A stretch of DNA of 64,000 nt from Antedon bifida (Eukaryota > Echinodermata > Crinoidea > Comatulida > Antedonidae), in assembly GCA_963402885.1 (NCBI GenBank), contig OY727096.1:33833820-33897819 (forward strand), given 5' to 3'. This document shows positions 14,931 to 53,285 of the stretch, one piece after another. Below the pieces are notes generated by a model, which was given only the letters and a program-made list of their open reading frames with translations, was not told the origin of the DNA and made no database searches. The position numbers were made by a program, and so were the translations under genes. Numbering within the stretch: position 1 is the first letter of the stretch; every line of letters starts with the position of its first letter.

Positions 14931-16763
14931 AATAAAGAATTCCGTCAAACTTAAAATAATCTGAATTTACTGGTTCTACTAATATATACTTCTGTGAAAA
15001 TCTGAAAAATTCAAATGAAACGCACAAAATGAGTTAATGAATCTTTGTTAGGGTCAATAAATAATATCTGGTTGGATAAACGATATAATATTGTGACAGT
15101 TCAATAACTGAATTTCTGAATTACCACAAACCATAGTTAGTAAGAAAGATGACAGTGGCCCAGTGACAGTGTGGATTCAATGAAACAGTACATTAATTAA
15201 TTCTTAATTTACAAAAGCACAGTGTCAATCATAGAAAACTATAATAATTAATATTACATGAATGTTGACTGTGTGTGTCCCAAATAGTTTAGCAGGTTTA
15301 TTTAAAATTAGTAGGCCCTCCCTACCCTAGCTAGGCCTAAAAATACTACGTACTTACAATAGGTCTACGTCTTATCATAAGTAAACATAGGCCTAGGCTA
15401 GCCTACACGACATATCTAGGCTACGTATGTGCACCCATCCATCTCTGGGTGGGGTGGGAGGCACGGAGACAATTAAAGGGCTAATTGAACTGGAGAGAAC
15501 GAGTTGAGTCCTGCCGATGATCCAGAGGAGAGGGCGGATTCGTTTGGCCTAGCAAATGCACCATTAAATGAAATGTAAAATAATGATCTAATGTCGAAAT
15601 CATACTCACCAAGCATTGCAGATTCTTTAACAATGTACGAGTAACAAATTAGTCATTCGGAAAAGTATAAATTCATTCATTGAAATAAGGAGATGACTCA
15701 CACAGCAAACATCATACTCGCTCGAGTTCTCAGACAAACAACAGGAAGTGATAAATACTGCCCTCATCTAAATAATACATTGGACTTTTTTGTTTTCTTA
15801 TCTATTCCATCATTTTTTTTATAATTAATTAATATAATTGATAATCATCAATCACTTAAAATTAAATTGACTTACTCTATGTCTAAAATATACTATATTT
15901 TAAGTATACAGCACACTAATGGATTTAATGGATGTATCCATCCTGTAATTGGCAAGTTATGCGTATGAAAAAAAAACATTTCTCAGAGCCTTGCCTTGCT
16001 GATACTGTGTCAATTCAATTCAATTCAACTTTTATTTCAGACAATAAATACAAATAATAATTTTTTAAAAAGAAATACAAGCATTGTGCAACAACAACCA
16101 TAAAAAAAAAATTATGGAGAGAGGACCAAGAATTATCTGTTAAGTAAATTAACGTAGTGACACTAACAATGGTACTATACAGAGACAATGCCGCGTATAT
16201 AAGTTTCCACTATATTATTTAGACTAGCATATATATTTCAACAAAAGCTACTATTATAATATACCATAGAGATATTATAGTGATATATCTCTATGAATAT
16301 ATACAAACAATACTTCAAGAATTGATTAAAATTAAAGTGACCGAGCTTGATCATGATTGATCAGTGAATAATGATGATGATGTAATGATCGTCAAATGAA
16401 TTAACTTAACTTAAATGTCATTTTTTTTTCAATAAGTTATATACAGTAGGTATTTATTATCCTAATATCATTAGAGTCTACCGTACTAATTAAAACAATT
16501 TTGGTAGTAATTAATTTAAGATTACACAATTCAAATTGCCAGCACGCCCTCATTATTTGCCGCACATTTGCAGACAATGTATGTACTAAAGAAAAGAAAT
16601 GTTGCGGTCCATCACGGTTGTATTATCATAAAACTGATATCATATTTGTACTTTGCTCAATCCACCGTATAATTTTCTCTCTCCCGGTTTTCTGAGTAGC
16701 ATACGGCATGCTGCCTGTTTAAGGCGTATTTTAAATCAATATTTTTGTGGTAAATACATTAAA
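14931..16763. promoter_or_regulatory. Shared 5' region of MKK3/6 and eIF3d
   Basis: The two genes face away from each other with start codons 1.83 kb apart. The region must hold both promoters and the 5' UTRs. No TATA box is obvious. Possible 5' non-coding splice sites for MKK3/6 occur near 15005 and 15608. A TTTTATTTCAGACAATAAATA stretch near 16030 resembles a retroelement tail. Close to the eIF3d start, short pyrimidine-rich sequence (TTTTCTCTCTCCCGG near 16674-16688) would suit a translation-factor transcript. Confidence 0.4.
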
Positions 16764-19700
16764 ATGAGTATTAGTTTTGTGCCACCCACAATCCAAGAGA
16801 ACCCAGATGGCTGGGGACCCTGTACTTTACCAGATCAGTTCAAAGATATTCCATATCAACCCTTTTCAAAAGGCGACCGTCTGGGAAAGGTAAGTTCTCC
16901 GCTCCGCGGTGCCGGTGGTGTGACCAGTCGAATACCGACCAGTCTCAGCGTGTGTGAATTTGTAATTAAAGTGGAAACTATCTGGCTGTTTTTAGTGTTA
17001 GTTAGGCCTAGAAATTAAGATTAATTCTAGGCCTCTAATAATATTTTGATATTAATATTAGAATTAGTTAGATACTGTGGAACTATGGCATGCTAGACCA
17101 GTGATGTGTTTTAGTTTCAAAATTAGATAAAATAAAAAAAGGCTTGTCACTGTGTAAAATAATTATTTTATTAAGTTTTTTTATATAAATAAAAATAAAC
17201 AATACTAATAATAGGCCTAGTAGATACTGTACAGTATACCCATACCTAGGGAATATTGAAAATAATTGCTTATTTTTAGAGCAGGTTACAAATCAAATGC
17301 ATATCTCTATTCTAGCCTATTTCTAGCTAGGTAGGCATATTTTGCAATATCCTATTCCTAACGTCTTAATAAATTGATATAAAGCTAGGTATATGAAATA
17401 ATTTGATAATTACCATTAACATAAGTCATCTTAAATTTGTATTTATTTCACAGGTATCTGACTGGACTGGTGCCACATATACAGATAAGAGATATTTAGG
17501 TAATTATTAGCGTTTTTTGTTATAACAGATTTATATTCCAACCAGCGCTGGAAAAGGATAAACATGCATACAAATAAAAAAGAAATAAAGGCATTTTGAC
17601 TGAGTCGTATATTAAAGAGGCTAAAAGTATATTATTATAAATCCTGTACTCACTAATAAAGAAATTGTCTACTTGCCTGATGGCCAAATATTTTTTATAG
17701 CAACCATTTCTGTCTTGTTTCAGGTCGCTACCAAACACAGTTTGGTTCAGGAACTCAGTACTCCTACTACCATGAGCAAGATGAGTCTAGTTTCCAGCTT
17801 GTTGACTCGTCCAAGATACAGAAACCTATCTATCTTAGAAACAGGCTTAAGTTTAATCAGGTATTCAAACTTTTAATGCGTTTACTGAGCTAAGTTCAAG
17901 AGTGTAAAAACACAACTAAATATCTCATTTAGCAGATTGTTTTAACAGTTAATAAATTCTTATCTTTTATATATTATTATATATATATATTATTATTATA
18001 ATATTTTTCAGCGTAACTTGAGGCGTGAAAGAGAACGCAGAGAACAGAAAGACACCAGCAATCCACAGTCTTTGACAAAAGCACAGAAAGAGCGCCAACG
18101 ACAAATGCGACGTCTACAGAAGCAATTTGGCAAATCAAGATGGAACCGTAATCGTTATGTAAGTTAATAATATGAAAGTTTGTCATTTTTTTAATAAACT
18201 GTACTTACTGTACTTACTTTACAGGGGAAAAATGTTGATTAATTATCAAACAAAGCAAAATATAGTACAGGTAAATAAAAATAAGTAATTGTATTTTTAT
18301 TTATTAAGCAACAACAAAATCAAGTTAAGACCAGAGATGCATCTGTGCAAGTTCGCAATGAATGGCAAGTTGTTGAAGAAATGGACTTCCCTCGCCTCAG
18401 TAAGCTACGGCTTCCAGATGTTTCAAGTCCAAAAGACATGTAAGCAACTTCAATAAACTATTGAATTAGCAACAAATATTGCCTAGGTAATACTGAAACA
18501 GTACAGAATGTGATGATCACTTGTTATCCCTGTCTTAACAAAGAGATGTGGAAACTATACACCTGATTACTGTACTATGTTCTACTATTGAATTGAATTA
18601 AAAGTTGTATAAATGCAGTATTTTAAATAATAATTCAAAGCCCATTTTTTTTCCAGCATTACCTGTGGCGAGGTGGAACAGTATGATAAAGCATACGATC
18701 GTATCACGACCAAGAATGAAAAACGTTTAGCAAGGGTCAATCGGATATTTCACAAGGTCACTACAACAGATGACCCTCTTATTAGAAAGGTATACTTTTA
18801 TTTGTTTCATACAAAAATAATTTGTTTTAATTGTATTTTTACTAACACAGATTAAATGTCACTTTCTGTGACCCCAGAATAATACCTTTTCTAGACTGAA
18901 ACAGTACATAATGTGATGATCACTTGTTATCCCTGTCTTAACAAAGAGATGTGGAAACTATACACCTGATTACTGTACTATGTTAATTTCTACTTTGAAT
19001 ATGCTAATTTCTACTTTGAATATGCTAATTTCTACTTTGAATATGCTAATTTCTACTTTGAATATGCTAATTTCTACTTTGAATATGCTAATTTCTACTT
19101 TGAATATGCTAATTTCTACTTTGAATATGCTAATTTACATTATGCTAGTTTTAATGTTTGTTTTTTAGCTTGTACCACAAGGAAACGTTTTTGCGACCGA
19201 CATCATCCTGGCTACCATGATGTGTAGTACCAGATCCAACTACTCATGGGATATTGTTGTTCAAGTACGTAAAGCAAAAATAACCCAATGCATTTTCTTT
19301 CTTCCCACAAAAATCCATTGTTATGCATCACCATTTCAACATCAATCATTGTGGCACTTTTGAAATAAAATTGGAAAGTATCTTGAGTATTGAGTTATAT
19401 TCATTACGAATTCTTAAAGTTTATTTCACATTATTTTCTATATAATATACTGTTAGAGGTGTTCCATATTCTAATTTAATAGAGACAAAAAAAATATTGT
19501 AGACAGTAGAGTACATGATGAGTATTGTTATCCCTGTCTGAAAACAAAAACTGTAGACAGTAACATTCTGAAACTACTCTGTACCTCAACTCCACTATTT
19601 CTAAAGCATAGTGTTTAAGATTTAAGTTCTTTGGACCAACTACACTATTACTAAAACGTTTCTTTTTGTTTTGTTTTTATAGCGAGTTGGTGACAAACTT

Positions 19701-22299
19701 TTCTTCGACAAGAGAGACAATTCAGAATTTGGTAAGAACATGATTTTGTATAACATATATAAGCCTAATGCATTAGATATAAAATGTATGCAAGTTCTAG
19801 GAGAGAGTTATTTAGTAATATGTTACAATGGTAATCAGACTTTAATGTTTTGTATTTTATGTAGACTTGCTTACTGTGAATGAGACGGCATTGACACCAC
19901 CACAAGAAGAGGGAGTTCACACAAATGCTCCACGCAACTTAGCGCTTGAAGCAACTTTTATAAATCATAACTTTTCTCAACAATGTTTAAAGGTAAATAT
20001 TATATTCAATAAAAACAAATGAAACACAGTTTTTACTGTATATCAGGAATAACAATAGGGACAGTCAGAATAAAAAAAAATCTTTTACACCAGAAATGGA
20101 AAGAGGTTGTAGGTGTGGTGTGTAATACTAGACATATAGATACATGCTAATTGCACACCAGACAATTGTATACAATTTATACTTGTATTTGTATTGATCA
20201 AATCAAATCCCAATGTTTCCTAATATAACAGTTGAGAGTATGATGATATTTGTTATCCCTGTCTGAACACAAAGCTGTGGACAATAAATGCTGAATCTTG
20301 ACTACTGTATTCTATAATTTGTTAGATAGGTTTTTTTTTTGTTTTCCTTTATATTTATTTTAGGTAAGCCAAGATATAAGCACTGTAATTTTCATTATAT
20401 TGTATAATAAAAGGAATCTGTATCATATCGGCCAGCAGCCCATTGGTGCATACTAATGGTCGTTTGTTGAGTGTTACTCATATTTTGTCCTTTTTAACAT
20501 TTTCTTTATTGTTTTAGGGAACGGAAAAAAAATTTAAGTTCGATAAACCAAATCCGTTTATCACCGATGACGACGAAGGAGAAGTAGCTTCTGTTGCTTA
20601 CAGGTATGGTAGGTTTATAAGATAATGTGTGTCTTTAACTGTAAAAAGACTAGAAAAAACAAGATAAATTCTTATCTATGATGTTATTTGTTATCCCTGT
20701 CTTAAATGATTATGTGGACACTAAATATCTGAGATAATAAATAAAACTGGATGTTACACAATAAGCTAAATGTCCTTAGTTTCTTCAATTAAACATTGTA
20801 TTTTTTTTATTTGCTGTTCATGTCTTTTGAAAGTTTTTCTTTTATGTTCTCTTTAATAACTGCTATCAAATTCTGGTATTTTGTTTCTAGGTATCGTAAG
20901 TGGGAGCTAGGAGATGACATTGACCTCATAGTCAGGTGTGAACATGATGCCGTTCTGATTGGTTCGTCTGGGGAGACTAACTTTATCAATATCAAGACTC
21001 TTAATGAATGGGACACTAAGGTTAGAATTTCCTGCCACATTTTCTTCCATTTTGGATCAGACTTCAGTGTTCATAACTGTGTAACAGTGTTCATAACTGT
21101 GTAACAGTGTTCATAACTGTGTAACAGTGTTCATGTAACTGGCGATTTACTTTGCTCTTAAACTTAAACAATTGATTGCGTTCTTGTTACCAGGCAACAG
21201 CTGCAGCTGAGTGGCGTCAGAAGCTAGATAGTCAGCGAGGTGCAGTGCTAGCTACTGAAGTAAAGAACAACAGCTTTAAGCTGGCCAAGTGGACGATGTG
21301 TGCTCTTATGGCTGGCTCTGACTATATAAAATTTGGGTAAGTATGGTGTAGTGATACATTTACACATTCTTTGGTATTCTGGGTATTAAAAAAAACAGAA
21401 ATGAAAACAGCATTACATGCAGCTTAACTGAATTATTCACAAGCTTCTTTTATTTGAAAATGTTGATGGCTTCTGTGTCTAATCAATAAATTGATATCAA
21501 TGATGTTATTTGTTATCCCTGTCTTAAAGTTAATATGTGGATACTATTATATCTGAGATAAATATTGATTACTTTCTAAACAACATTATGTTGCAATTGA
21601 TCTGGTAGAGTCATCAAAATATTATGTGGGTGGAAAAATAAACATATACTGTGCATATCATAAGTACCATTGCAGTATCGTGCATAATAAACACCTAATA
21701 ATGCTGTCATATTTGTTTCCTGTGAAGGTATGTTTCACGTGTAAACCCCAAGGATTCATCTCAGCATGTCATCCTAGGCTCACAGCAGTTCAAACCAAGT
21801 GAGTTAGCAGCACAGATCAACTTAAACATGGACAACGCTTGGGGCATATTGAGGTGTATTATAGATCTCTGCTTTAAGCTGGATGAAGGCAAATATCTCA
21901 TTCTTAAAGATCCTAATAAGGTAATAGTCAATCTCATTCTTAAAGATCCTAATAAGGTTAGTCAAAACTTCTGACCATTTATTATCACAGTTGTTTTTTT
22001 GTTGTTTGTTGATGGGTTGTCTTTGTTTAGTTTATTTCCTGCTCAGAGTCTAGATAATTATAATAATCAACAAACACTCAAAGAACTCTGATCTTTACGA
22101 AATAGCGCTATATAAATGTTGCATTGTCATTATAGTAGATAGATGCCTTTCAAATTTGTTTTCCAGTGACATTCTTCGACATTTTGTTCTTTTTCAGCCA
22201 ATGATTCGAATCTACAACATCCCAGATAGTACATTCAGTTCTGATGAAGAAGACGAAGATGGTGATGATGAAAATGAGGATGATGGCGATGATCAATAA
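16764..22299 (+). CDS. Eukaryotic translation initiation factor 3 subunit D
   Basis: eIF3d is a peripheral subunit of the eIF3 complex on the 40S ribosome. In mammals it has a cap-binding fold used for specialised initiation. Fourteen coding exons join in frame to 548 aa: 16764-16889, 17454-17499, 17724-17860, 18012-18158, 18309-18439, 18657-18789, 19169-19264, 19683-19731, 19865-19992, 20518-20603, 20891-21020, 21194-21336, 21728-21920 and 22198-22299. The start [19 protein letters not shown] and the central segments [11 protein letters not shown] and [13 protein letters not shown] are typical of the family, as is the acidic tail ([15 protein letters not shown]). Length equals that of the human protein as I recall it. 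Introns 5, 6, 7, 9, 10 and 12 each hold one box C/D snoRNA. After exon 13 a duplicated donor could add 12 residues in frame. Confidence 0.97.
18498..18573 (+). ncRNA. Box C/D snoRNA, snR38-like, copy 1 (eIF3d intron 5)
   Basis: Box C GTGATGA at 18510-18516, guide TTGTTATCCCTGT at 18521-18533 directly before a D'-like CTTA, a C'-like TGTGGA, and box D CTGA at 18563-18566. Ends ACAGTA (18498-18503) and TACTGT (18568-18573) form the terminal stem. The guide is complementary to ACAGGGAUAAC of large-subunit rRNA. Box D lies 91 nt before the 3' exon, a normal spacing for intron-processed snoRNAs. The D' box is one base off consensus. Confidence 0.85.
18901..18976 (+). ncRNA. Box C/D snoRNA, snR38-like, copy 2 (eIF3d intron 6)
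   Basis: Almost identical to copy 1: box C at 18913-18919, guide at 18924-18936, D' CTTA, box D CTGA at 18966-18969, and terminal stem ACAGTA/TACTGT. The similarity extends a few bases outside, which shows a recent duplication between introns 5 and 6. A 21-bp minisatellite separates it from the next exon. Confidence 0.85.
18984..19135. repeat. 21-bp minisatellite in eIF3d intron 6
   Basis: About seven copies of TAATTTCTACTTTGAATATG plus C, lying between snoRNA copy 2 and the acceptor of exon 7. It stretches the distance from box D to the exon to about 200 nt. Confidence 0.93.
19505..19578 (+). ncRNA. Box C/D snoRNA, snR38-like, copy 3 (eIF3d intron 7)
   Basis: Box C ATGATGA at 19515-19521, guide TTGTTATCCCTGT at 19525-19537, and a consensus D' CTGA at 19538-19541. 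A C'-like TGTAGA follows, and box D CTGA at 19568-19571. A short stem AGTAG/CTACT closes the ends. Outside the boxes and guide it has diverged from copies 1 and 2. Confidence 0.83.
20228..20308 (+). ncRNA. Box C/D snoRNA, snR38-like, copy 4 (eIF3d intron 9)
   Basis: Box C ATGATGA at 20240-20246, guide TTGTTATCCCTGT at 20250-20262, consensus D' CTGA at 20263-20266, C' TGTGGA, and box D CTGA at 20291-20294. ACAGT and ACTGT at the ends can pair. Confidence 0.83.
20672..20737 (+). ncRNA. Box C/D snoRNA, snR38-like, copy 5 (eIF3d intron 10)
   Basis: Box C ATGATGT at 20678-20684 (last base off consensus), guide TTGTTATCCCTGT at 20688-20700, D'-like CTTA, C' TGTGGA, and box D CTGA at 20729-20732. 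The terminal stem TTATC/GATAA abuts the boxes. Closest to copy 6. Confidence 0.8.
21065..21134. repeat. 20-bp minisatellite in eIF3d intron 11
   Basis: Three and a half copies of CAGTGTTCATAACTGTGTAA between exons 11 and 12. It holds no snoRNA boxes. Confidence 0.9.
21481..21570 (+). ncRNA. Box C/D snoRNA, snR38-like, copy 6 (eIF3d intron 12)
   Basis: Box C ATGATGT at 21500-21506, guide TTGTTATCCCTGT at 21510-21522, D'-like CTTA, C' TGTGGA, and box D CTGA at 21553-21556. A perfect 8-bp terminal stem AATCAATA/TATTGATT flanks the element. Confidence 0.82.
21895..21958 (+). repeat. Duplicated exon 13 end and splice donor in eIF3d
   Basis: The last 26 nt of exon 13 plus the first two donor bases (21895-21922) recur at 21931-21958, giving a second donor GTTAGT at 21957. 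Use of that donor adds exactly 36 nt without a stop: [12 protein letters not shown], repeating LILKDPNK. The first donor GTAATA restores the normal protein and is taken as the main form. Confidence 0.85.
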
Positions 22300-22376
22300 A
22301 CAATAATCACTAATATTTCTATTTGTCACATGTCCCAACAATTCCACTCCTAATTAATTGAAGTATACTTTTACTT

Positions 22377-22490
22377 AAGCTCTGTCTACACTATCAAAAT
22401 ATTTGACATTTGACAAAAAAGGTGTGCCCAAATATGGTAGCGATATCATCATCATGTCCATATATGGGCACGTCACATAATAGAGCTTTA
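22377..22490. mobile_element. Foldback MITE-like element, family A, copy 2
   Basis: Starts AGCTCTGTCTACACTATCAA and contains GTGTGCCCAAATATGGTAG and CCATATATGGGCACGTCACA. It lies in the 3' flank (likely 3' UTR) of eIF3d, 78 bp after the stop codon and before the AATAAA at 22648-22653. The right arm is shortened. Confidence 0.75.
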
Positions 22491-22647
22491 TTAAATTTTG
22501 GTAATACATTTTGTCCTGAAATACTGTGTTGATTTTTAAAAACTCACAATAATACTCACAGGCTTTGTTCCAAGACAGACATGACAGATTATTTTAATGT
22601 CTTCTTAAAATCATATTATTTAACAATGTATATCATTATCTCAATCT

Positions 22648-25695: not shown

Positions 25696-28600
25696 TTACA
25701 AATGGCCTGCTTGCAGTAAAGTGTATTTAGTCACAAATTCTTCCGTGTAGTTTCCAGCAAGTGCCTTCATAGCGCGCCAATGCAGCTTGCTCACCATCTC
25801 CGGCTTACCCATTGCAGGATCCATTTCCAAACGTATGTATTCTAGCCAGAGTCCTGAGAGAGAAAGTCATTTGGTATTCAATTTGGGGCGTAAATAAGTT
25901 ATTCAAAATTGTTGAATGAATCTAAAATGGTCAAATGCATACCTGGATTTGTAGAGCCAGCTTCTTTAACTGCGTCTTCATAAGCTGCTCTGATTCTTCC
26001 CACTTTTGGACTTTCCTTTAAAAAATACAATTCATTCATTTTAAGATTACAAGACTTTTTCTTCGGTAAATTTCAAAATGTTTATGTCAATTCCAATGTT
26101 TTGCATTAGAATGTGTTAAGCACTGTCTACACTATCAAACTAGTTTGACCAAAAAAATGTGATGTGCCCAAACATAGTAGTGATATTCCCAAATATGGTA
26201 GTGATATGACATCATCGTACATCACATTTTTTTGTCACATAAAGTTTGATAGTGTAGAAAGCTTTACACACTTACCTCTGACAACTCTATTTGGATATAT
26301 TTGTGATAAAATGCAGGTGGCAAAGGTCGAGAGCTAACTAATTTCTTGTAAGCCTTCCTTAGTTTACCAATGCCTTGTGAGACAGCCCAGTCTAAATAAT
26401 GCTCTGTAAAAACCATTGAGATTTCAGCCTTTTCACTTAATCCTCTCTGCAGGTAATAAAAATAGATTTTTTTCAATTTTAGCAATTATTGTTCAAGTGT
26501 TACACAGGGGCTTATCAAGCGGTTAGCTCTTGGGTTGCACGATCCTCCTCTTCATTTTGATATCTATTTTTGACAGACTATTAATCTTATGTTATCGGTC
26601 CCCTCCCCTAGATCAATCAAAGACCAACACATATGTTTATAGTGATCATTTTTTACTAAATAGACTACCCTCATTAAATTATTACTGTATTATAATATAT
26701 TAACAGTAACAAGCTTCATCATTGTTAGACACAGCACGTTCTACTATTATGTGCAATTTATTACTGTATTAAAGTTATATTATTATAGAAATTGTACCAT
26801 AGAATATCACCATCATTATATATTATGAAGAAGTAATATTTTTTTTTATATTTCATAATTTCTTAAAATTCATCATCCATTCATAGCATCTTTTATTTCT
26901 CTTTCTAATATTGTATTAGGACCATTAACATGTCATTAGATCTTCTCAAGTAGAGGTCTAATGTCCGGTATATTACCTCCATTATTAATTCTACATTATT
27001 TGGATCATTCTTCTTGTACCAATCCAAACTGTATTCCCATAGCAACAAGGCATCCTTCAAAATCAACAATCAAAGATTAGTGTGAAAATGACACATTTTG
27101 TTTTCTTTTGTAAAGAGATACAGATCAACTTTATTCCATCCTTCACAGGAAATTCACAAGGTCACAGTTCAAGAATACAATAATGATGAAATGAGACAAT
27201 TATCTCTGAAACCCACTTCAGGTTTCCCTTTCATATTAATCAAATGAAGAATTATGCAGAACTCACCTCAGGTTTAACTTTAGTAACAGCTTCATCAATC
27301 AACTGACACATTATCTTCTTACTACTTTTATCTCCTACAATTTAAAATTGAATTTAATATTACTGTACATTGTTATTAATTTATTTTTAATAACCTTTTA
27401 CTTTATTATGTTTCATGTAATGAGATAGTTCTATACTATTTCATGAGAATTCTTTAGCAGTGGGAAAAAATATGCTTGTTTTTCTTCTTTTGATTTCATG
27501 ACCTCACTGACCTGTCTCTAGTAAAGCTGAATGAAGAGTTAACCTTTGACTCCACAAAGCAACACTATCTTGATATGCTTCAGTTGCCATGACAGCCGTT
27601 GCTGTCGCTTTTTCTAACATACCAAGTCTCAATAATAGGCGAACCTTTAAAAACAACCAAATAATGAATTTTATTGTTAAATTCATGCCAGTACTGAATT
27701 TAGACATTTGCTATAGACTCACCTAATATACTACTATATGTATACTTATCGTACTGTATAACTCACCCATTTGTTATAAATATCTACAGATAATTTGCTA
27801 TGTTTACCAGCTGTTGTAAGAACTTGTGTTGCTTGCTCAACTCTCTAAGTTAAAACCAAAAAATGTACATTTCATAATGTGGTGATTTAATTGAATGGAT
27901 AATGTAATTCTTAGAAGCATGTTATTTTCTATGTACCTTTTCCTTGAGTTTTGTGGAACCATCTTGGTCAATTCTTTCTAGACAAAAGGCAGCATACAAG
28001 CACCATATCTTGTCTGTATTTAACTTTGTTGAAGCTTCCTCATACACTTTATAACACTGCTCTTCTAGCTCTAGCAAAGTAAAAAACATAAATTATTAAC
28101 TAACTTTTAAGTTTATCCTATGTCAATTTAACTTAATATTATCACAAATGATCATTATGAGTTGTTGTACATTGTCTTACCCTGCTGTTCACCTGTCTTC
28201 AATGTTAAACACCTCCTAGCTATTGCATCCCACACTAATTCATTTGATGGATGACTTGTTTGTACGCTGAAAACAACAATATGGTTACACAGGGATAAAA
28301 CATTTATTTACAATAAATACTAGGCTTTTTCATGTTTATAGGGAGCTATACTAGTTAATAATGTGCAGCATTTGTTGATTTGTATTATTATTCATAATTT
28401 AGACAGTCAACCTACTCTGCATATATTTCATCTTCCAGTTTTTGTGTAAAATCAAATTGCTTTAAAATAGGAATAAAGGACATGTGGAAGTTGGCGTCAT
28501 TGCTGATGGCTTGCAATGCTTTCTTGTACACTACTTTGGCTGCTAGACCTTCCATTACATTATCTGTCATCTCTTCTTCATCAGTTTTCATGTTTCCTTG

Positions 28601-30247: not shown

Positions 30248-30527
30248 CTTCCGTCAAAATGTGATCGCGTGGCCACGATCCGATAAAACAAAAACACACA
30301 TAAACAAAAATTACATGTGCTTTGTGACCTCACCATAAAATTTATTTTAATAAAAAAATGTCTTACAAAATAAATTATTTGTTTACTACAGATAGGTTTT
30401 AAAATAATATAAAAACTCAATATTGTATAATTGAATGTCATAAACAGTTGATAAATTTTTTAAATAAGCACAGTTAATGTTAGTGGCAACATTTATTAGA
30501 CCACTTGTGTGCGTCCTAAGCAACAAC
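30248..30527. promoter_or_regulatory. Bidirectional promoter, UTP6 / DNAAF5
   Basis: Only 280 bp separate the start codons of UTP6 (minus) and DNAAF5 (plus). Near UTP6 the sequence is GC-richer (GTGATCGCGTGGCCACGATC, about 30261-30280). The middle is AT-rich with no clear TATA box. The DNAAF5 start ACAACATGGCGG has a good Kozak context. A head-to-head pair this close usually shares a promoter. Confidence 0.7.
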
Positions 30528-33500
30528 ATGGCGGACAATTCAGAAGTTGAAAGTGTAGAAATTAAATCTAATATTATTTTACAAGCTGTTGCAAGGCATG
30601 TAAATTGTTTAAATGAAGGGACACGAATGGTAAAGAAAAGGGCACTTGATGGAATAAGAAAAGAAACATTAGGTCGTATTCCATTGCCAGAAAAAGATGT
30701 TTTACAAAAGGTTTTTGATGGATTATTGAAGCCGCTGTTGAAAAGTATAGGAGACCAGGTTGAGAAATGTAGGGAGCTGTCTATTTTGTTAGTGGGTGAT
30801 TTTATGGAGAGTGTTTCGAATCCAGAAATGTTCCTCCCATACCTGATACCAACAATAGTTCAGCGGCTAGGGAATCAAGATATTGTGGAAAATGCAGAAG
30901 AATTAAGGTTTAATTTGGTTGAATTGTTGACGAAAACGGTTGATTTGACAAACAAGAAGATTGCACCATATTTGGATGACATTGTAAAGATTATGGAAAG
31001 GACAATATTAGATCCGTATGCGGAGGTCCGCAAGCAGAGCTGTGTGTGTACATGTAAGGTTGCAAGAGGGATACCAGAACATTTCCATATGCAGTCCGAA
31101 TCTTTAATAAACCCACTTCTTCAAAGTATCAGCCATCAACATTCCAAAGTGCGAGTACAGTGTATCATTACAATAGGAGACGTTTTACAATTTGGAAGTC
31201 ACAAGCCTATGGAAAATGTTATCTCGCATCTTACGCAACGTCTGTTTGATCATGCACCGTCGGTTCGGCTAGCCATTACAGAGATTGTTGGGTGGTGGCT
31301 ATTGGAATTTGTTGATCGCTATTCGTTCCATCATAAATTAATTCCAATTCTGCTAACCAGCCAATCAGATGAACTTCCAGATATTAGTCAAAAGGTTATT
31401 ATTATTTTCAACTGCTAACAAATAGGAAGTTATTAAAAATACTATTATATCATCATATTTATATCATCATATCATATTCTCATCAATAAAAAATAAAGAA
31501 AATGAATTGTAGCCAAAACAATGAATTGTTAAAACAGTTGATTTATTGAAAATTAATTCATTTTTTTTTTCTTGCAGGCTTACAAACTGTGGGATGAAGT
31601 TGGTGCCAAGTATGAAGAAGAGAATGAGGAAGAATTGAAGAATAAAATGAATTTTGTTGAAGAATTAGAGATTGCTCCGGGAATTGGTAAGGAGTGTGCG
31701 TCATACTACCTGCATATGTAGGTACTGGTAGAGTGCGAGCAATGTGAAGAAAATATAAACTTCTTTTTTTTCCCTTTAAACACCGTACAATTTTTCAACA
31801 GTTTATACTGATGAATTATTCACTTTCAATTCTTTGTTCTTGTGTTCAGCTTCTAGACCTAGACTTGGATGTCGTACATTGATTTTCCGAAATATGTCCA
31901 AGATTTTACCAGGCCTTCTAAAAGACCTAACAGACTGGACTGTTGCTAACCGACTGATGTCTGTGAAATTACTTCACACTCTACTCATCAATTCTGAGGA
32001 CAATAGCACACAGCACATGGAGAAATTACTGACAGGAATGTACAGAGCGTGTGCAGACGAGGAGCCAGAGATTGTAAAAAGGGTATGTATTCAAGAATAT
32101 TATTTTTCCGTATACATCCATCTATAATTGTTGAGACTAAAACATTTTCACTTGAATTAAGTCTACACATCAGGACATATATGGTGCAGTGTCTGATAAT
32201 GATCATGCTTATAACTACAGTATATCTAAGTCTCATTCAAGGCTTAAGGAGTGAAATAGTCTAGTTTAACCGTTCCTTGAGGTACAAGGAAACGGCATGC
32301 TAACCATCAAGCTCATACATTTATTATTTCAGTCTTAACAATTTAATTCTTTAGGTCATTAAAGCAGCTGAAATTGTAGGCTGGTATGTTTGTCCAGAGG
32401 TGTACTGCAAACTGATTTTACCCAGTCTGAAGAACACACAAAGTGCTCATGTCCTCATGACATTGGCTGCTATTATTAGAGGCTCAAGACCTGACTTGTT
32501 TGAGGCACACATGAGTGAAATATCAACCACATTAGCTGAGGTTGAAGTCTGTCGAGTTGAAAATGTAAGTTTTTTTTATTTAAAATGTTATTTTTTTTGG
32601 TGTAATTTTTATTTAACCCAAGAAGCAGCTACAGAAATTTTAAATATAACAATATTACAATCATTTGTACCTCCATTAGGCATTGTACCAACTGCAGTTA
32701 GTATCCTGTGTGAATGCCATCATGTCAACAGGAAGTAAATATCCAGATAGACTCCAGTCATCCAGCCTGCAATTGTTTACAGTCTTATTGAACATGCTTG
32801 CACTGGCTCGCGATGAACATATTCATACTGAGGTAAATAGAATTAGAATTCCAATATATTTACAGACAGAAACAAAAAGATTAATGATAAAGTTATTAAT
32901 ATTAGGGATTTGTTTTTATTTATTTATTTTAAAATAAATTTATACTGGTTAAAAACATATCAGGTAATAGATATTGCACCTGTTTTACATATGGTCCTGT
33001 TTTTTAGTAGACTAAAAAACATTTCATAAAAAGACATTAAAAAAAACTTACAATAAAACTGGAAATCACAAAAAACGATATTTAGAGTATGGACTTACCC
33101 CTGTACATAATGTTGAATTTGTGGATACAGGTAGTATTCTGATAAAGAGAGGAGTGGCAATCATGCAAAGTTGTTGACAGGACACTATATTAATTTAATG
33201 TAAAAAGTTGGTAAATTACCATGTTTGTTATGTGATAAGACATTGCACATAATATAAAATGTTAATTTTGTTCGTCAATAGGCCAACAGCTCACTGAAAA
33301 CACTTGCAAACATCCAGGGTTTGAGTAACACAACTGAACTGTATGAAAAACATACAAAAGATTTACTGGAGACTTTGAAGGGAAACTACAAGGATTGGAA
33401 CAATTATTCTTTGGAACGTTTAATTTTTGACACTTTACTTACTGAAGCAGGTATTGTTTATTTAAATATCCTTTAGCATTTTAAACTGTTCAGTTCAATA

Positions 33501-35522
33501 TTAATATTCTACAGCTCCAAGCTAATAATTGAGTAGTACAGTAATTTAATCCAATCTTATCAGCCACAAGAAACCCTTCCTAGAGAAGGACTTTAGGATT
33601 TGCAAAGTAGATAATCAAAGATGTTAATGATCACAGAGGGCTGTGCTTAATCGCAGTGTGGAACATTTAATAGTAGTGTTTGTTTAGAACATTATTTGTA
33701 ATAAGGTTGTGAGGTAGTTTCCCGAATGATCCTAATCAAAACAGTACTGAGTTTGGTCTGCTAGCATTCCTCATAGAAGCATTAATGAAGCAAGCCTACC
33801 TGTACTGGTGGTGACTATAGAATGGTCCTGAAATAACGACTATGCTTCGGCTTTAATTGATAAATGATTGAAATATTATATTAGTGTAGATGTGTTGCTA
33901 TATCAAATGTTCCGTATAGTATACAAAACTCTGTAATAATGACCATTGTTTGATGATAAAAGAATGTATAACTGTTTGTTGACAGGAGCTATTCTTGGTG
34001 CTCTTCTAACTGATATCGTTCCAATGCTGAGTGAAAACCTTCAACCAACTAAAGATGCTGAACTTAGACTTAAGTTCTTTTCACTCTTATCACGACTGTT
34101 GATGAATTCTGGTGCTTCAATTGATTCCCAGCAAGGCTTTGGTTCTTTTGCCACCATAGTAGTTAAGGACATGATACTACCAAACTGTGTCTGGCATGCT
34201 GGCAGAGTGTGTGCAGCTGTCAGGACCACAGCCGTATCCTGCCTCTGGGCTCTCTTTCAAAGTCAACTTCTCACTCAAAAACAGGTACAAACTTTTTTTT
34301 TTTTATTTGTTTACTAATACTATTATTTATAATTAATTGTTCAAAATCATCAAATTCCACACCAACAGCCAAAGCTGAAAAGGTCGGATTTCAGGTACAA
34401 GAAAGCTTAAAATTATAAAACTCTGAGATTGTTAGTTAAACCATATTCTTCATCATTACTGTACTGTATCACCACATATTTCATAAAATATTTAAAACTT
34501 TTATAAAGACATATACTATATAAGGACATATACTATATAAGGCCATATAATATCATTGTGTCTTTTAAATAAATTACCATACACATTTTTCTTTCAGGCA
34601 ATTGATTTATCAAAAGACCTGTTGACACAGTTGAAAAGCCTTCTAGAGGACGAGGTAAAATCTACCAGACTGATTACTTGTCGTATTTTCAGCAAGTTTC
34701 TACTTGTTTGTGGAAAGAGCTTTGATCCAGATCACTTACACAGTTTTTATATTGAGTTATTAAAACGACTGGACGACAGCAGCGATGACATCAGAGTAGC
34801 TGTTGCTAAAACCTTCTTGATTTACTTCCAATGTTTCCCTGTGAACTATGACACGTCCTTATATGGTGCTCACTTGCAAGAGATGTATAAAGGACTGTTG
34901 GTACATCTTGATGATCCTGATGCACACATTCAACAGCAACTCCTTGGTAGGACTTATTTCTTTTTCTCTTTTCCTTTTATTTATTTATTCTTTAAACTTG
35001 GTGACCTCTTCAGAGGGCCCAGTTTGACAAAAGAATTACATTTTTGGATACATAAAACAAATAGAAAACCACCACTATTTCCAGCAAACAAAGATTTTCA
35101 GATTTTTATTTTTTTATATAAATTAGATATAATAATAAACGATGAATTGAATTCTAAATCTTGCATCCTTGTTTCTGTTAAATAAAAGTTTTTAAAAAGA
35201 ATTCTTTTTTAGTTGATAGGTGTAATTTATTTATTTCAAACTATTAACCAGGCTGCCTACTAGCCTGTAAATACAACAAAAACATATTTCTTTAACTAAC
35301 ATTAACTTTAACTAACTAACTTGACCAGCATCAAATTCTGAGGTCATTACCAGCTAGAACATTAACAATAAAATTGTTGTTGTTTGTTTTACAGATGTGT
35401 TAAAAGAAGCAGGTAAAATCAAGCCATCACTACTACTAGATGAACTTGAAGCTGTCCGACATAAGCACAGAACTGACGTCTACTGCCAGAAACTGTCTGA
35501 CCATCTCAAACCAATCTTATGA
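30528..35522 (+). CDS. Dynein axonemal assembly factor 5 (HEATR2)
   Basis: DNAAF5 is a cytoplasmic HEAT-repeat factor needed to pre-assemble axonemal dynein arms; loss in humans causes primary ciliary dyskinesia. Nine exons join in frame to 838 aa: 30528-31394, 31578-31686, 31850-32082, 32355-32564, 32680-32832, 33282-33450, 33986-34284, 34598-34946 and 35395-35522. HEAT-like helical repeats fill the protein. Family blocks include EKCRELSILLVGDF, DPYAEVRKQSC, ASRPRLGCRTLIFRNMSKI, LLKDLTDWTVANRL and EPEIVKRVIKAAEIVG. An in-frame ATG at 30477 is rejected because 30528 has the better context and matches the usual N-terminus. A large first exon (867 nt) is followed by small ones. AATAAA lies at 35600-35605. 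Confidence 0.95.
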
Positions 35523-39114: not shown

Positions 39115-39907
39115 AGTATTTCGTTTCCCAGGTCGATGTACAATACTGTATTACGCGAGATTTGTTCGCAGCCAGGATGACCATAGTGTGATTAACTAGG
39201 CCTATGTTGATGCCACATCGATCGTGTTAGATGTATTCTGTAGGAAAACATGATTAATGTTATAGTTGTGAACAGATTTCTTTCGATGTAAGATTCGAGA
39301 CGCCCTAATAATAAGTAGACCATCACTGAAAAACTAATTTATGTGTATTCATTCATATGTTACTGTTATTATTACATATTTAGTTCATGTTGTTAATTAT
39401 TAAATTGTCATATTTTTTAATAATTATAATTTGATTGCATTAGTTATTGTTATTATTATTGTATAAATCCAATGGCAAATTACTGAAAATAATGACAATG
39501 CTATGGGTATAAGTGGCTGGATATCAATGAAGATATAAAATAAGCAAAAAGCTAAATCAAAACAGACATAAAAAATAGCAGAGGTTTCGGGCAACACTAG
39601 CTCTTCATCAGTGTATAATTATACTATTGTATGATAGATGATGATCCTATAGGAGATGATTTGCTTTTTATTCGATAAAATATTAGAGTACATTTGGGAT
39701 TTCAGAGATTTAGAACAAAATACAAACCAATACTTATTTCAAACTATTTAGAACATTAGTATTGTATTTGTCAATTAGACGAAAGTGTTTTTTTCTCTCA
39801 CTTAAATTAAATAATAATATTGGCTTAATGCGCCCTCATCACACAATTATATTTATTAATCTATGTTCTGTATATTGTATTACAATAAACTTTGACTTTG
39901 ATTTCAG
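39115..39907. other. Sequence before the first sure synaptotagmin-17-like exon
   Basis: AT-rich. A segment near 39580-39620 (GAGGTTTCGGGCAACACTAG CTCTTCATCAGTG) resembles ends of dispersed elements but has no partner in this window. The acceptor for the exon at 39908 lies at 39898-39907. Confidence 0.4.
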
Positions 39908-42203
39908 ACTGGATCCGGTATTTTGTCAAAGTTCAGCCAGTTTATCTGCTGTCAGTCGTCGTCTTGTTTTCCTTGTGACTATTCTTCCCATGTTGACGAA
40001 GATGACGACGATGACGACGCATTTACCGATTCAAGAGACAGCTATCCGATCTGTGCCGAACCTCCTTGCCGAACAGTTCGACAGCCTTCGGTTGGCTCCT
40101 CTAGAAGATCTTCAAATTCCGATTCCCGTCGTTCGTCTACAGATCGACGATGCAGTATTCCTGCACCGTTAATCGATATGAAACCGATTGAGTTCTGGTC
40201 ACCAACGACCAATTCTGAAATGGTGCAGCCACGGACCCCAACGAGGCGTTTTGGGGCTGATTTTCATCAGTTTTCTGATGCTCAAATTGAACCCAAGCTT
40301 TATGGAGTACCGGAAGATGAAGACGATCTCGAAATTCAACATCTTGGAAAGATTCACTTTGGTGTTCGATACGATTTCACAAACGAACAGTTGTTAGTAA
40401 GAGTGGTGAAAGCGCGGGATTTGCCCCCGCCTGTTGTATATGATCCAGATAAGATTGATTTAGCTCATTCAAATCCTTATGTCAAAGTGTCTCTTTTACC
40501 GGACCAAATAAACTCGAAGCAGACAGTCGTGAAAGCAAAGACTCAATCTCCTGATTTTGACGAAAGTTTCCGATTCGATCTTGCGTACAGGGAAGCTCAA
40601 AGAAGACTACTACACTTGTCTGTTCAGGATTTTGATAAATATTCAAGACATTGTGTGATTGGTGAATATACCATGCCACTGGATGGAATTAATTTAATGA
40701 AAGGTGCATATATATGGAAAGCTCTTCAGCCTAGTGCGCATGTAAGTCACGCTTTCATAATCTTAAAACAAATTAAATAGCATGTTTTCGATAGTACTTC
40801 TTATATTGCAAAGGTCAACTATGATATAGCAAGACAGATTTACGAGAGAAATGAGATTATGACAATCGAGAATCGGCTCTTAAATTATTTATTTCAAACA
40901 CGTTTTTAGAAATTTTAAATACCAAAAGGTGAACGAACAACGCTTAATAAATAGAATATCAGTTTCAGTTAAAGTACAGATTAAAATTACACATAAAGTT
41001 ACCATTCTAAATGTGTGTACTAACTTAGTATGATACCAGGTCTAGGTAATGACGTAATGCCGTAAGCACAACGCAAGCGAGTTGACCAATAGCAAGCAAC
41101 AGTCAGATAATCCATCGCGTGCTGATTGGTCAAATTACTTGCGTTGCGTCCTTATTTGCGTTCTAGTGGGAAGAACCAAGCTTGAGATACGTAATACGAC
41201 TTTTAAAACTTCTTTTCTTATCTCTGTATACAACTATAGAATAACCCAACACGTGGAGACATTTTGGTATCTTTGAACTACCTACCAGTTGCACAGCGTC
41301 TTCAGCTTGATGTCATCAAGATTAAGCAGCTTCTTCAGACAGATATCAATGGCGGTTCTGGTAAGTACACTTCTTCACTAACTTAACGATGAAACAGATG
41401 AACAATTTTCTTCTATTTTCAAGTTCTCTGTCTTACTGTGTCTCTGTCATGTCTGATATTCAGTCAGATATTTTTGCATCATACATTAAAACAACAAAAA
41501 CAATGCTATAACAAATGTTATTTGTCTTTTCAGATCCTTTTGTTAAAATCCAACTGATACTAATGGACAAAATAATAAAAACGAAAAAGACTTCAGTGAA
41601 GAAAAACACAATTGACCCAGTTTTCAATGAAAGTTTTCACTTCAACGTGTTGCCATCGTCGCTGGATAAAATCGTGTTTGTATTATCTGTGTTGGACTAT
41701 AACTGTAAAAGTCGAGATGCTGTGACGGGACAGATCAACTTAGGCAAATACTCATCAGGTGAGAGAGAACCTTGTTAACCGTGTCTGATTGAATTTAATA
41801 GATCTTCTTTTATAAAAAAAACAGAACAGAATTTGTTTTGGTCAACCTGCCCCTTCTTCTTCTTCGTCGTAATTTAGTTTGGCCAATTATAAGGCTGTTA
41901 TTTTAATCAGGTATCATTTCCAAAATATTGTTACAATTTGTTTTGGTCAACCCTAACCCTGTATTTATTTAAAAGCGGGTCGCCCCTAACTTCTTCGTCG
42001 TAATTTAGTTTGGCCAATTATAAGCATCATTTCCAAAATATTGTTTCGTTGTCCCTTAACTTGTAGGTTTATCAGAAAACACACACTGGCTTCGAATGAT
42101 TGAATCACAGCGTTCACCTGTCGCCCAATGGCACGCACTCAAAGCACCAGACCAATGTGGCGGTCTCATCACCATGCAGACCAACCCATCCATGTCTTCA
42201 TGA
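39908..42203 (+). CDS. Synaptotagmin-17-like (B/K) protein, 5' exon uncertain
   Basis: Tandem C2-domain protein of the SYT17 group, which in vertebrates is a peripheral membrane protein of the secretory pathway without a transmembrane helix. Exons 39908-40741, 41240-41360, 41534-41758 and 42067-42203 give 438 aa plus a short unknown start. The N-terminal part has a Cys cluster (FICCQSSSCFPCDY) suited to palmitoylation, an acidic run, Ser-rich sequence, and the group hallmark PLIDMKPIEF. C2A starts about LGKIHFGVRYD and contains AHSNPYVKVSLLPDQ, with the usual Asp of SDPYV replaced by Asn, and DFDKYSRHCVIGE, with Cys in place of a Ca-binding Asp; calcium binding by C2A is therefore doubtful. 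C2B has NYLPVAQRLQLDVI and GGSDPFVKIQL and ends WHALKAPDQCGG. Two family B elements surround or lie within its introns. Confidence 0.93.
41045..41187. mobile_element. Foldback element, family B, copy 3
   Basis: Lies in the intron between the first two synaptotagmin-17-like exons. It contains CAACGCAAGCGAGTTGACCA and TGATTGGTCAAATTACTTGC and ends TAGTGGGAAGAACCAAGCTT, so it is a diverged copy of the elements at 38843 and 39004. Confidence 0.75.
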
Positions 42204-46037: not shown

Positions 46038-49000
46038 TTAGTTCTCCACGTTATTTGCTAAAGACGTTTCTTTACTTGTTACATAACTATCACCACCACC
46101 ACCATCATCATCTTCACTGTCATTTTGCCCTAAGAGCTGTTCTCTAGAGGAGTCATCTAGGCTTATGGAGGTGCTTGATGATGATGATGGTTTCCTCCAT
46201 CCTTTCGGCCTGAAAACAATTAAAATCACAGATAAGCATAATAAGTTTACATACAGCTGCAAAGGTTATCAACAACATTTGTTGCAGGACAATAGCTTGG
46301 AAGTAGAACAATTCAACATGAAGAACTACAAATTTTGTTAGATCAGACTATTGGCTCTGTCTACATTATCAAACTAGTTTGACAAAAAAGTGTGATGTGC
46401 CCAATATGGTAGTGATATGCCCAAATATAGTAGTGATATGACATCATCATGTCCATATATGGGCACATCACATTAATCAATAAAACTGGTTCAGGCAGTG
46501 ATATTAAAAGCTTCTACATGTTGACCTACCTTAGAAATGTCGCCAGGGTCAAAAGGTCAACAGATTTACGCTGCTCATCTACAAATGCACACCTGACAAT
46601 TTCACTTGTTGCTATGCCCACTAGAAATGTAGTGAGAAAAGCAACTGTGCTATACCATAAGAAAGATATCTGTGGAATAGAATACATACAAATACAAATT
46701 CTGAAAGGCATTTTCAACATTCTGTATATTTTGATAAATCTTGGTTGTACAACATAGAACAAAGACAATACATAATATACGTCCATCATGCATCAATTGC
46801 TCTATTTGTACTTATTGTATACTGACTTTAGTTAGAGACTAAATCCTGTTCTAATATACTTACTTGATATAGCACAAAGACATCAGGATTAACAACACCA
46901 TCCTGTGTGTTGGTAATAGCACCTATGGTGATCCACAAGGAAATGAGAAAGCCTGACAACAGGCCAACTAAAGCACCGCTATAAAGAGATTCCAAAATAG
47001 TGGTATAAAAAATACAATACAACTCTATTTTGCTATTTTAATATTTTGGACAGAGTTATAGGCCAATTAAGCTTTAAAAATATATATAGTTTGATATTTT
47101 AACATTATCATGTCACTAATATCTAAATGTAGTCTTGTTATCTGTAATATCATATTATATGTTAAGTCTTTTAGGCCCTGTTAATGATGACGTATGATGA
47201 AAAAATAAATAAATAAATAAAAATAATAAAATAGTCAAACTTACCCAGAGTTTGCACGCCTATAGAGAATACCAAGAGAAAACAAACCCAATAGAGGGCC
47301 TCCTACTGCACCAAACACGGTGTTTGCTGTTTGTATTAGACTCCCAATATGAGATGCCACAAATGCTAACAGTATACAAATCACACCATATCCACATGCT
47401 GAAAATTCCAAACACACATTTATTCCTATTTTAGTATAGTGAGAATGTGTCCTCTTTACTGGAACTAATATTTTAAGTTAAGCACCCATCTAACACAGTT
47501 TACACAGCAGGCTACACACCATACACACCTCAGCTGTTGACACAGTTTACACAGCAGGCTACACACCATACACACCTCAGCTGTTGACGCCCAGCGTTTT
47601 GCTATGTTTTAAGGTTTAACCCTTTAGAAAGATTAATGTAACCAATGTTTATTTAATTTATTTATTAAACTTGATCCTACACATAATAAAAAGGCAGCAA
47701 AAAGAAAGGGATGAACAAATGACAAGCACCTCTATCCACATCCCCCCTTAAAATACACATAACAGTAACAAATAGAATATATAAATGCACAAAACTAAAT
47801 ATAAAAATAGCTAAAATATATGTCTTACTTTTCATACTTCTAAAATTGTACATTCACAACCATAGATGAGTGATAGCTACCGTCCTGTTTTAAAACATAC
47901 ACCATACAAGATATTTTATAAACTTCAAACTTACTTAACATTTTTGACAGCTTTGTGTCAGACCTATCTTGAGGACCACTTGCAACACTGCCCTCTTTAT
48001 TCCTTGCTCTTCGAATCGGTTTAACAATATCAATCAATGTTACAGCAGCTAGGGAGTTCAACCCAGATGCAACAGTGCTAAAGAAAATGGTATGTTTAAT
48101 GTTATCAATCAATGTTACAGCAGCTAGGGAGTTCAACCCAGATGCAACAGTGCTAAAGAAAATGGTATGTTTAACAATATCAATCAATGTTACAGCAGCT
48201 AGGGAGTTCAACCCAGATGCAACAGTGCTATAAAGAAAACAATAATGTTTAACAATATTAATCAATGTTACAGCAGCTAGGGAGCAACAGTGCTAAGCTA
48301 GGGAGTTCAACCCAGATGCAACAATGCTAAAGAAAATGGTATGTTTAATATTATTAATCAATGTTTCAGCAGCTAGGGAGTTCAAAGAAGGAAATAATAC
48401 CTCAATGTTCCAGCAAATAAACAGGCTACAAAGAGACCTTGTATTCCTGGAATATTCCCAAACTCTTGACTGACAAAGAAAATAAGTATCTGAAAAAAGA
48501 ATTTAAACAAAAACCTTATTTATTATTTATCATTTCTTCTTTTTACTGGGTGACCTCTTCAATCGAAGACTGGTCTCCCAGAGGGCCCAGTTATAATCAG
48601 TGGCTGTGATGTACTAGTACACTGGGGTAACCCCTACTTGTCTTGAAAGATGTCCTGGTTCTTAAAAGTGCACATGAGCTAGATGTGTACACTGGACCTA
48701 CAGTTTATAGTCCTTATCCGAGAAGACTCGTTCTACCACCAGAACCATGAAGCGAGTGAGCCTTGAACCCTTGCCGATGTTATGGCTACGTAATTAGGTT
48801 GGACTGTCTTAACTGCTAGGCCACTCACTCACACTGATGAATGGCAGTAACACTGTGTCCTAATGGCACATTCAATACTTTAACTGTTTACCTGATCTAT
48901 TGAACTATAGTCTGGAACTTGTCTACTTGGGGTGGTACCTGCAAAATATACACAAATCAAATCTTAAATCATAATCACTGAAATCAATGTGCACACAAAA

Positions 49001-53024: not shown

Positions 53025-53285
53025 AACGATGGTAAATGTGCTCTCCCTGCCTCAGCACTAAGGCCCTGCCACAGCCTTTTGGGGTCGTTTCCACCACATC
53101 ACCAGATGCATTGATGTTGTCGCCTCATGATGTGTGGTGGAAAGGGGGACGTATGATCTGTGAACCCCAAACACAGTGGCTCGCATAGCCTTAACTCTAT
53201 TCCACCGACCAGCGTGGGAATCGAACCCACGACATACGTGTTGTTAACACGACGCTCAGACGACTGAGCTAACTGACCATTTTGG
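53025..53285 (-). mobile_element. tRNA-derived SINE with intact A and B boxes
   Basis: On the minus strand from about 53281: TAGCTCAGTCGTCTGAGC (box A and D arm), an anticodon arm CGTG TTAACAA CACG, and GTGGGTTCGATTCCCAC (perfect T arm with box B). Then a tRNA-unrelated body ending near 53025. The 5' and 3' acceptor strands do not pair, so this is not a working tRNA gene. The loop would present AAC (Val). Confidence 0.7.

Follow-up and report, generated by a model that had tools for sequence, protein, structure and literature searches.

Six introns of an eIF3d gene very probably each encode a box C/D snoRNA of the snoR38 (snR38/SNORD1) family, predicted from sequence to act as a methylation guide. 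The host gene lies within the 64,000-nucleotide stretch of DNA analysed here (the window), where its coding region (16764..22300, plus strand) was assembled as a chain of 14 coding exons with consistent splicing at GT/AG sites, giving a single reading frame of 548 amino acids. Its identity as eIF3d was established by the Pfam match PF05091 (E=1.3e-213), and comparison of the host protein with solved eIF3d chains in the PDB returned seven sequences of the eIF3d kind (best E=5e-253). The snoRNA copies are distributed one per intron over introns 5, 6, 7, 9, 10 and 12, an intron numbering already given in the original prediction and found to be correct on this 14-exon model, and their D boxes end 90, 199, 111, 223, 158 and 171 nt, respectively, before the 3' splice site. 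The identical 13-mer TTGTTATCCCTGT, which had been claimed for all six, is present in each, on the plus strand, at 18521, 18924, 19525, 20250, 20688 and 21510. It was recovered 0 times in 100 dinucleotide-preserving shuffles, as against six times in the real sequence, and random occurrence is thereby ruled out. No extra copy was detected in the remaining eIF3d introns with the exact guide, Rfam, our own sequence model or BLAST; besides the six copies, the sequence model returned just two stretches of about 4 bits from the introns of the gene. Separately, exon 13 ends in 26 nt that, together with the following GT (21895-21922), are duplicated exactly at 21931-21958, which creates a second potential donor.

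The box reading of the six copies agrees with the predicted anatomy. Box D is an exact CTGA in all six. At D', introns 7 and 9 carry CTGA and the other four copies CTTA (one mismatch), and C' reads TGTGGA in five copies and TGTAGA in one, with 2-3 mismatches to RTGATGA in every case. Box C' is commonly degenerate in box C/D snoRNAs. Box C, likewise claimed for each copy, is present throughout, as an exact RTGATGA in four and as ATGATGT, with one mismatch, in introns 10 and 12. The guide GUUAUCCCUGU stands immediately 5' of D' in all six and is also present in the consensus of the RF00213 model. The distances between the boxes vary little, with spacers of 16-17 nt (C to D'), 7-9 nt (D' to C') and 9-11 nt (C' to D), so that 55-57 nt separate the first base of box C from the last base of box D, both included.

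Covariance-model searches assigned every copy to the same family, albeit with unequal scores. When the whole window was searched with Rfam at gathering thresholds, two of the six copies (introns 9 and 12) were reported as snoR38, in addition to one tRNA. With an E-value threshold applied to positions 16500-22400, all six matched RF00213 on the host strand, with E between 2.1e-05 and 0.012 and matches spanning 70-73 nt. The highest-scoring copy, in intron 12 (21492..21563), reached 45.7 bits, above the gathering score of 45 bits for RF00213 (snoR38); its box C, ATGATGT, starts at 21500, the guide occupies 21512-21522 in front of a CTTA D', and box D ends at 21556. The intron 9 copy (20232..20301; box C from 20240, guide 20252-20262, D' CTGA, box D end 20294) equals the gathering score at 45.0 bits. 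The intron 10 copy (20670..20739; box C ATGATGT from 20678, guide 20690-20700, D' CTTA, box D end 20732) scored 44.2 bits (E=4.5e-05) and the intron 7 copy (19507..19578; box C from 19515, guide 19527-19537, D' CTGA, box D end 19571) 41.5 bits (E=0.00019). The lowest scores were obtained for intron 5 (18503..18573; 36.4 bits, E=0.0028), where box C is at 18510-18516, the guide GTTATCCCTGT at 18523-18533, D' (CTTA) at 18534-18537 and the end of box D at 18566, and for intron 6 (18905..18977; 33.8 bits, E=0.012), where box C starts at 18913, the guide lies at 18926-18936 before a CTTA D' and box D ends at 18969. All six predicted snoRNAs are on the plus strand. Four of the six fall below the gathering score, a weak point of the assignment, but RF00213 is still the best family for each, and guide, boxes and strand speak for counting these four as snoR38. 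The nine further rows of the Rfam list for 16500-22400 belong to other C/D families and score 18-29 bits against cut-offs of their own of 48-75.

In box C/D snoRNPs the nucleotide selected for 2'-O-methylation is set by the fifth base upstream of D'. Direct reading gives a C at this position, facing the second G of ACAGGGAUAAC, as expected for the snR38-family guide that had been proposed. The accompanying statement that yeast snR38 directs Gm2815 agrees with tables in PMC5199042 and PMC8817022. Yeast snR38, a member of RF00213 carrying the same guide, is described as guiding LSU Gm2815 (PMC5199042) by means of an rRNA-binding region with 11-base complementarity at rRNA nucleotide 2815 (PMC8527467), and one aligned site unites yeast Gm2815/snR38, human Gm4362/snR38A/B/C, Arabidopsis Gm2805/AtsnoR38Y and Dictyostelium CD6 (PMC8817022). 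RF00213 itself comprises human, yeast and plant guides (plant snoR38Y), with the yeast site numbered Gm2812 in that source (PMC3511168). The corresponding LSU rRNA stretch was sought in the present assembly as ACAGGGATAACTGGCTTGTGG and ACAGGGATAACTGGC, with 0 matches to either; the assembly may lack rDNA.

Conservation among the six eIF3d copies was determined from alignment A1, which, together with model R1, was built from nine of the ten copies found (L008 was left out); the alignment block labelled box D holds the bases before CTGA and is shifted in intron 9, and the box D counts given above come from the box reading. Identity across the six amounts to 100% in the 13-nt guide, 85-87% in boxes C, D' and C', 47% in the spacer from box C to the guide, 45% in the D'-C' spacer, and 44% and 39% in the two flanks. 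The C'-D segment (18556-18562 in intron 5), at 69%, is above the other spacers and has a core near ACTA that is common to the six and to a copy in PRPF8 described below. With guide and D' excluded, pairwise identity is 0.43-0.59 in 13 of the 15 pairs, the close pairs being introns 10/12 (0.78) and introns 5/6 (0.98). The suggestion that everything except boxes and guide is drifting fails for introns 5 and 6, which at 98% identity indicate that one of the two is a recent duplicate or a converted copy. The set thus combines divergent members with at least one recent event of duplication or conversion.

That the copies are clearly related follows from the BLAST identity of their common stretches, 71-88% with the guide included. 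In all 15 intron pairs the common stretch covers only the snoRNA and its near flanks, 51-124 nt, the longest being those of introns 5-6 (124 nt, 88%), 7-9 (84 nt, 79%) and 10-12 (76 nt, 88%). The proposed local expansion within eIF3d is supported. Duplication of whole introns was considered and rejected, since sharing is confined to this interval around the snoRNA in each of the 15 pairs. Two further observations were made in these introns. Tandem Repeats Finder reported an array of a 21-bp unit (7.5 copies, 99% matches; 18979..19136, plus strand) between the intron 6 snoRNA and the 3' splice site, overlapping the stretch common to introns 5 and 6; by eye, the unit resembles a single stretch immediately 3' of the copy in intron 5. 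Upstream of the snoRNA in intron 9, 32 nt (20026-20057) show 75% complementarity to the copy in intron 7 at its guide region, and may represent a decayed inverted copy or chance.

Terminal stems were evaluated from 12-nt arms, i.e. the stretch upstream of box C and that downstream of box D. For seven of the ten copies (the six plus PRPF8; the three copies on contig C10 were left out), own arms gave a mean of -5.4 kcal/mol, compared with -1.8 for swapped arms. Among the 5040 permutations of partners, a result as good as that of the own arms was obtained in 4 with 12-nt arms, 16 with 16-nt arms and 93 with 20-nt arms, some ties being built into the test as the 12-nt 3' arms of introns 5 and 6 are identical. 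When positions were drawn at random from the same introns, 0 of 20000 draws attained the mean that the six show with 12-nt arms. Taken singly, the stems of introns 5, 6, 7 and 9 outperform 97.8-99.9% of 4000 positions picked at random from the introns of this gene, in line with the short terminal stems originally reported for every copy. Introns 10 and 12 do not rise above random with 12-nt arms, as 22% and 28% of the random positions do equally well. Intron 12 has an extra outer helix with 20-nt arms, and the stem of the PRPF8 copy is weak (-1.4) for all arm lengths tried. The main predictors of snoRNA expression are reported to be box score, structure, the stability of the terminal stem and the expression of the host (PMC10234308). 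On their boxes and stems, the copies in introns 5, 6, 7 and 9 appear more likely than the other two to be expressed. Processing is expected to begin with release of each snoRNA from its eIF3d intron after splicing, whereupon binding of the C/D snoRNP proteins to boxes C/D and the terminal stem would protect it. Through its 11-nt guide, located 5' of D', the snoRNA would then pair with ACAGGGAUAAC in large-subunit rRNA, and fibrillarin would 2'-O-methylate the second G of this stretch, the counterpart of yeast Gm2815 and human Gm4362.

The distribution of the exact guide was determined over 315.6 Mb in 27 contigs using GTTATCCCTGTCTNA (guide plus CTNA), a pattern by which diverged guides are missed. 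It occurs at 12 places: the six eIF3d copies, a single copy in PRPF8, three copies on contig C10, and two places that lack clear boxes, whereas the reversed pattern gave 0 in the whole genome. Chance expectation for 14 fixed bases with equal base use is estimated at about 2 places genome-wide. The PRPF8 copy (L001) lies in an intron whose flanking exons match two PrP8 domains. At 47.1 bits it is the highest of the four matches listed by a genome search with RF00213; this search scored 62 of 127,167 candidates and missed the copies in introns 5, 6 and 7, and is therefore not a census. Box C of the PRPF8 copy, ATGATTA, has one deviation, and its nearest relatives are introns 10 and 12 (0.62 identity). 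The three copies on C10 (L007-L009) belong to a segmental duplication (96-98% over 1.0-2.5 kb). Their similarity to the intron 5/6 copies (95-96%) is confined to 68-80 bp, and their C' is altered to TATGGA. Rfam gave 29.8 and 29.5 bits with RF00213 for two of them, the third not being listed. No host gene was seen around the C10 copies in lists of open reading frames, nor were direct repeats or an A-rich tail, as marks of retroposition, seen there by eye. A 5S rRNA-like sequence (L008 2792-2912; 68.2 bits, above gathering) is found near one of them.

The remaining two places, L026 and L037, combine the exact guide with CTAA, and by eye have no clear box C and no CTGA at the usual distance. With RF00213, L037 reached 26.9 bits (E=0.45), below the cut-off, and L026 gave no match; our own sequence model returned part-length matches of 17.5 and 16.1 bits, respectively (E=4.9e-05 and 1.3e-04; 18,180 bases). 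They may be chance occurrences or decayed copies. A looser pattern (box C plus guide, up to two mismatches) was found at 18 places and its control at 31 and 38. As this is no better than the control, use was restricted to the five places matched exactly (introns 5 and 6 and the three on C10) and to L011, a place identical with L026. Taken with the short common stretches, this distribution is consistent with a unit of roughly 50-125 bp having been copied repeatedly into other introns of the same gene and, more rarely, to other places, namely PRPF8 and contig C10.

The window contains several features besides the eIF3d gene. A short dispersed repeat is present at 2487-2559, 22371-22500, 26116-26186, 46354-46477, 50579-50606 and 62923-63011, and the same repeat occurs in PRPF8 introns (L001 217-335 and 1963-2068), where it overlaps sub-threshold Rfam microRNA matches. 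Exon sequence of a DNAAF5-like gene lies at 30468-31418 (plus strand; PF25757, E=1.1e-109), and an open reading frame at 34541-35185 has sub-threshold HEAT matches only. Further downstream are an open reading frame with a C2 domain (39902-40780, plus strand; PF00168, E=4.1e-19) and, on the minus strand, a tRNA-Val with anticodon AAC (53205-53279).

It is quite possible, if short of probable, that only some of the six members of the family work, the others being recent or decaying duplicates where one or two would suffice. This is a narrower reading inside the best explanation and is compatible with it. The near-identity of introns 5 and 6 outside guide and D', marking one of them as recently duplicated or converted, points in this direction, as do introns 10 and 12, in which box C deviates and the 12-nt stems are weak, and the landing of the C10 copies where no host gene is seen. 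Still, the divergent copies (43-59%) all keep the exact 13-mer, which would be unexpected if they were unconstrained.

The human guides snR38A/B/C (SNORD1A/B/C), located in introns of SNHG16, number three as against six here, and their host differs from the present one. They belong to the same family (RF00213), act at the counterpart site Gm4362 and similarly form more than one paralogue (PMC8817022, PMC3511168). Yeast snR38, in contrast to the six copies found here, appears in the tables of the cited sources as one guide for its site (PMC5199042). The chicken counterpart of snR38, GGgCD64, resembles the present copies in having an 11-nt guide adjoining D' and in residing in a host intron, but is given as a single copy, in intron 2 of ENSGALG00000001886 (PMC2653536). 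A likeness is also offered by cis-duplicated box C/D families, which as here place several copies in one host gene (PMC8178906, PMC2653536). Among human C/D families with at least two expressed members, 59.5% are reported to lie wholly within one host gene, and C/D copies are stated to arise mostly via recombination within the host (PMC8178906); nearly all chicken snoRNA paralogues are likewise described as having arisen within a gene, with guides kept and the rest varying (PMC2653536). No earlier report of eIF3d as a host, or of six copies, was found in the open-access literature searched; in one study eIF3d figures as a contact of the ribosome rather than as a host, and excerpts of a Drosophila study contain neither snR38 nor eIF3 (PMC13228274). 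The multicopy expansion is real but of a kind common for box C/D snoRNAs.

These precedents bear on the idea that six copies were selected for dosage of the snR38-family guide. Copy number and the exact conservation of the guide speak for it, but the pattern would look no different after neutral duplication inside the gene, a frequent event among box C/D families (PMC8178906, PMC2653536); selection for dosage is considered unlikely. More speculative, and very doubtful, is the notion that the six eIF3d copies together with that in PRPF8 mark a lineage in which the output of a translation-initiation gene would hold this methylation, close to the peptidyl-transferase centre, at a set level or adjust it to one, the single copies being released from their introns to different degrees or in different ways.

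Highly improbable is a divergence of the copies towards new targets through the D-box guide, as the original prediction had it, or a second, unrecognised guide shared among them. The C'-D spacers do vary between copies, and the better preservation of this segment (69%, against 45-47% in the other spacers), with its core near ACTA, could be read as a shared guide. However, spacers no longer than 9-11 nt, in each of which 1-3 bases are G or C, leave little room for a second guide, so that takeover by new targets is unsupported; moreover, the D' guide is identical in every copy. The reading of the copies as a dispersed repeat other than snoRNA, in which the 13-mer just happens to be included, can be practically dismissed: copies do also occur on C7 and C10, the three on C10 in a segmental duplication, but the exact guide with CTNA is confined to just 12 places in 315.6 Mb (diverged guides not counted), the boxes are kept, the stems are matched within copies and one copy resides in the housekeeping gene PRPF8.

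As a set of predicted snoR38 guides, the six eIF3d copies point to no new mechanism. They constitute a clear example of a box C/D guide multiplying among the introns of a housekeeping gene, in which one genome holds divergent copies, a near-identical pair, a further copy in another gene and some for which no surrounding gene was seen. They could provide a natural test case for whether the copy number of a guide matters for the level of methylation.
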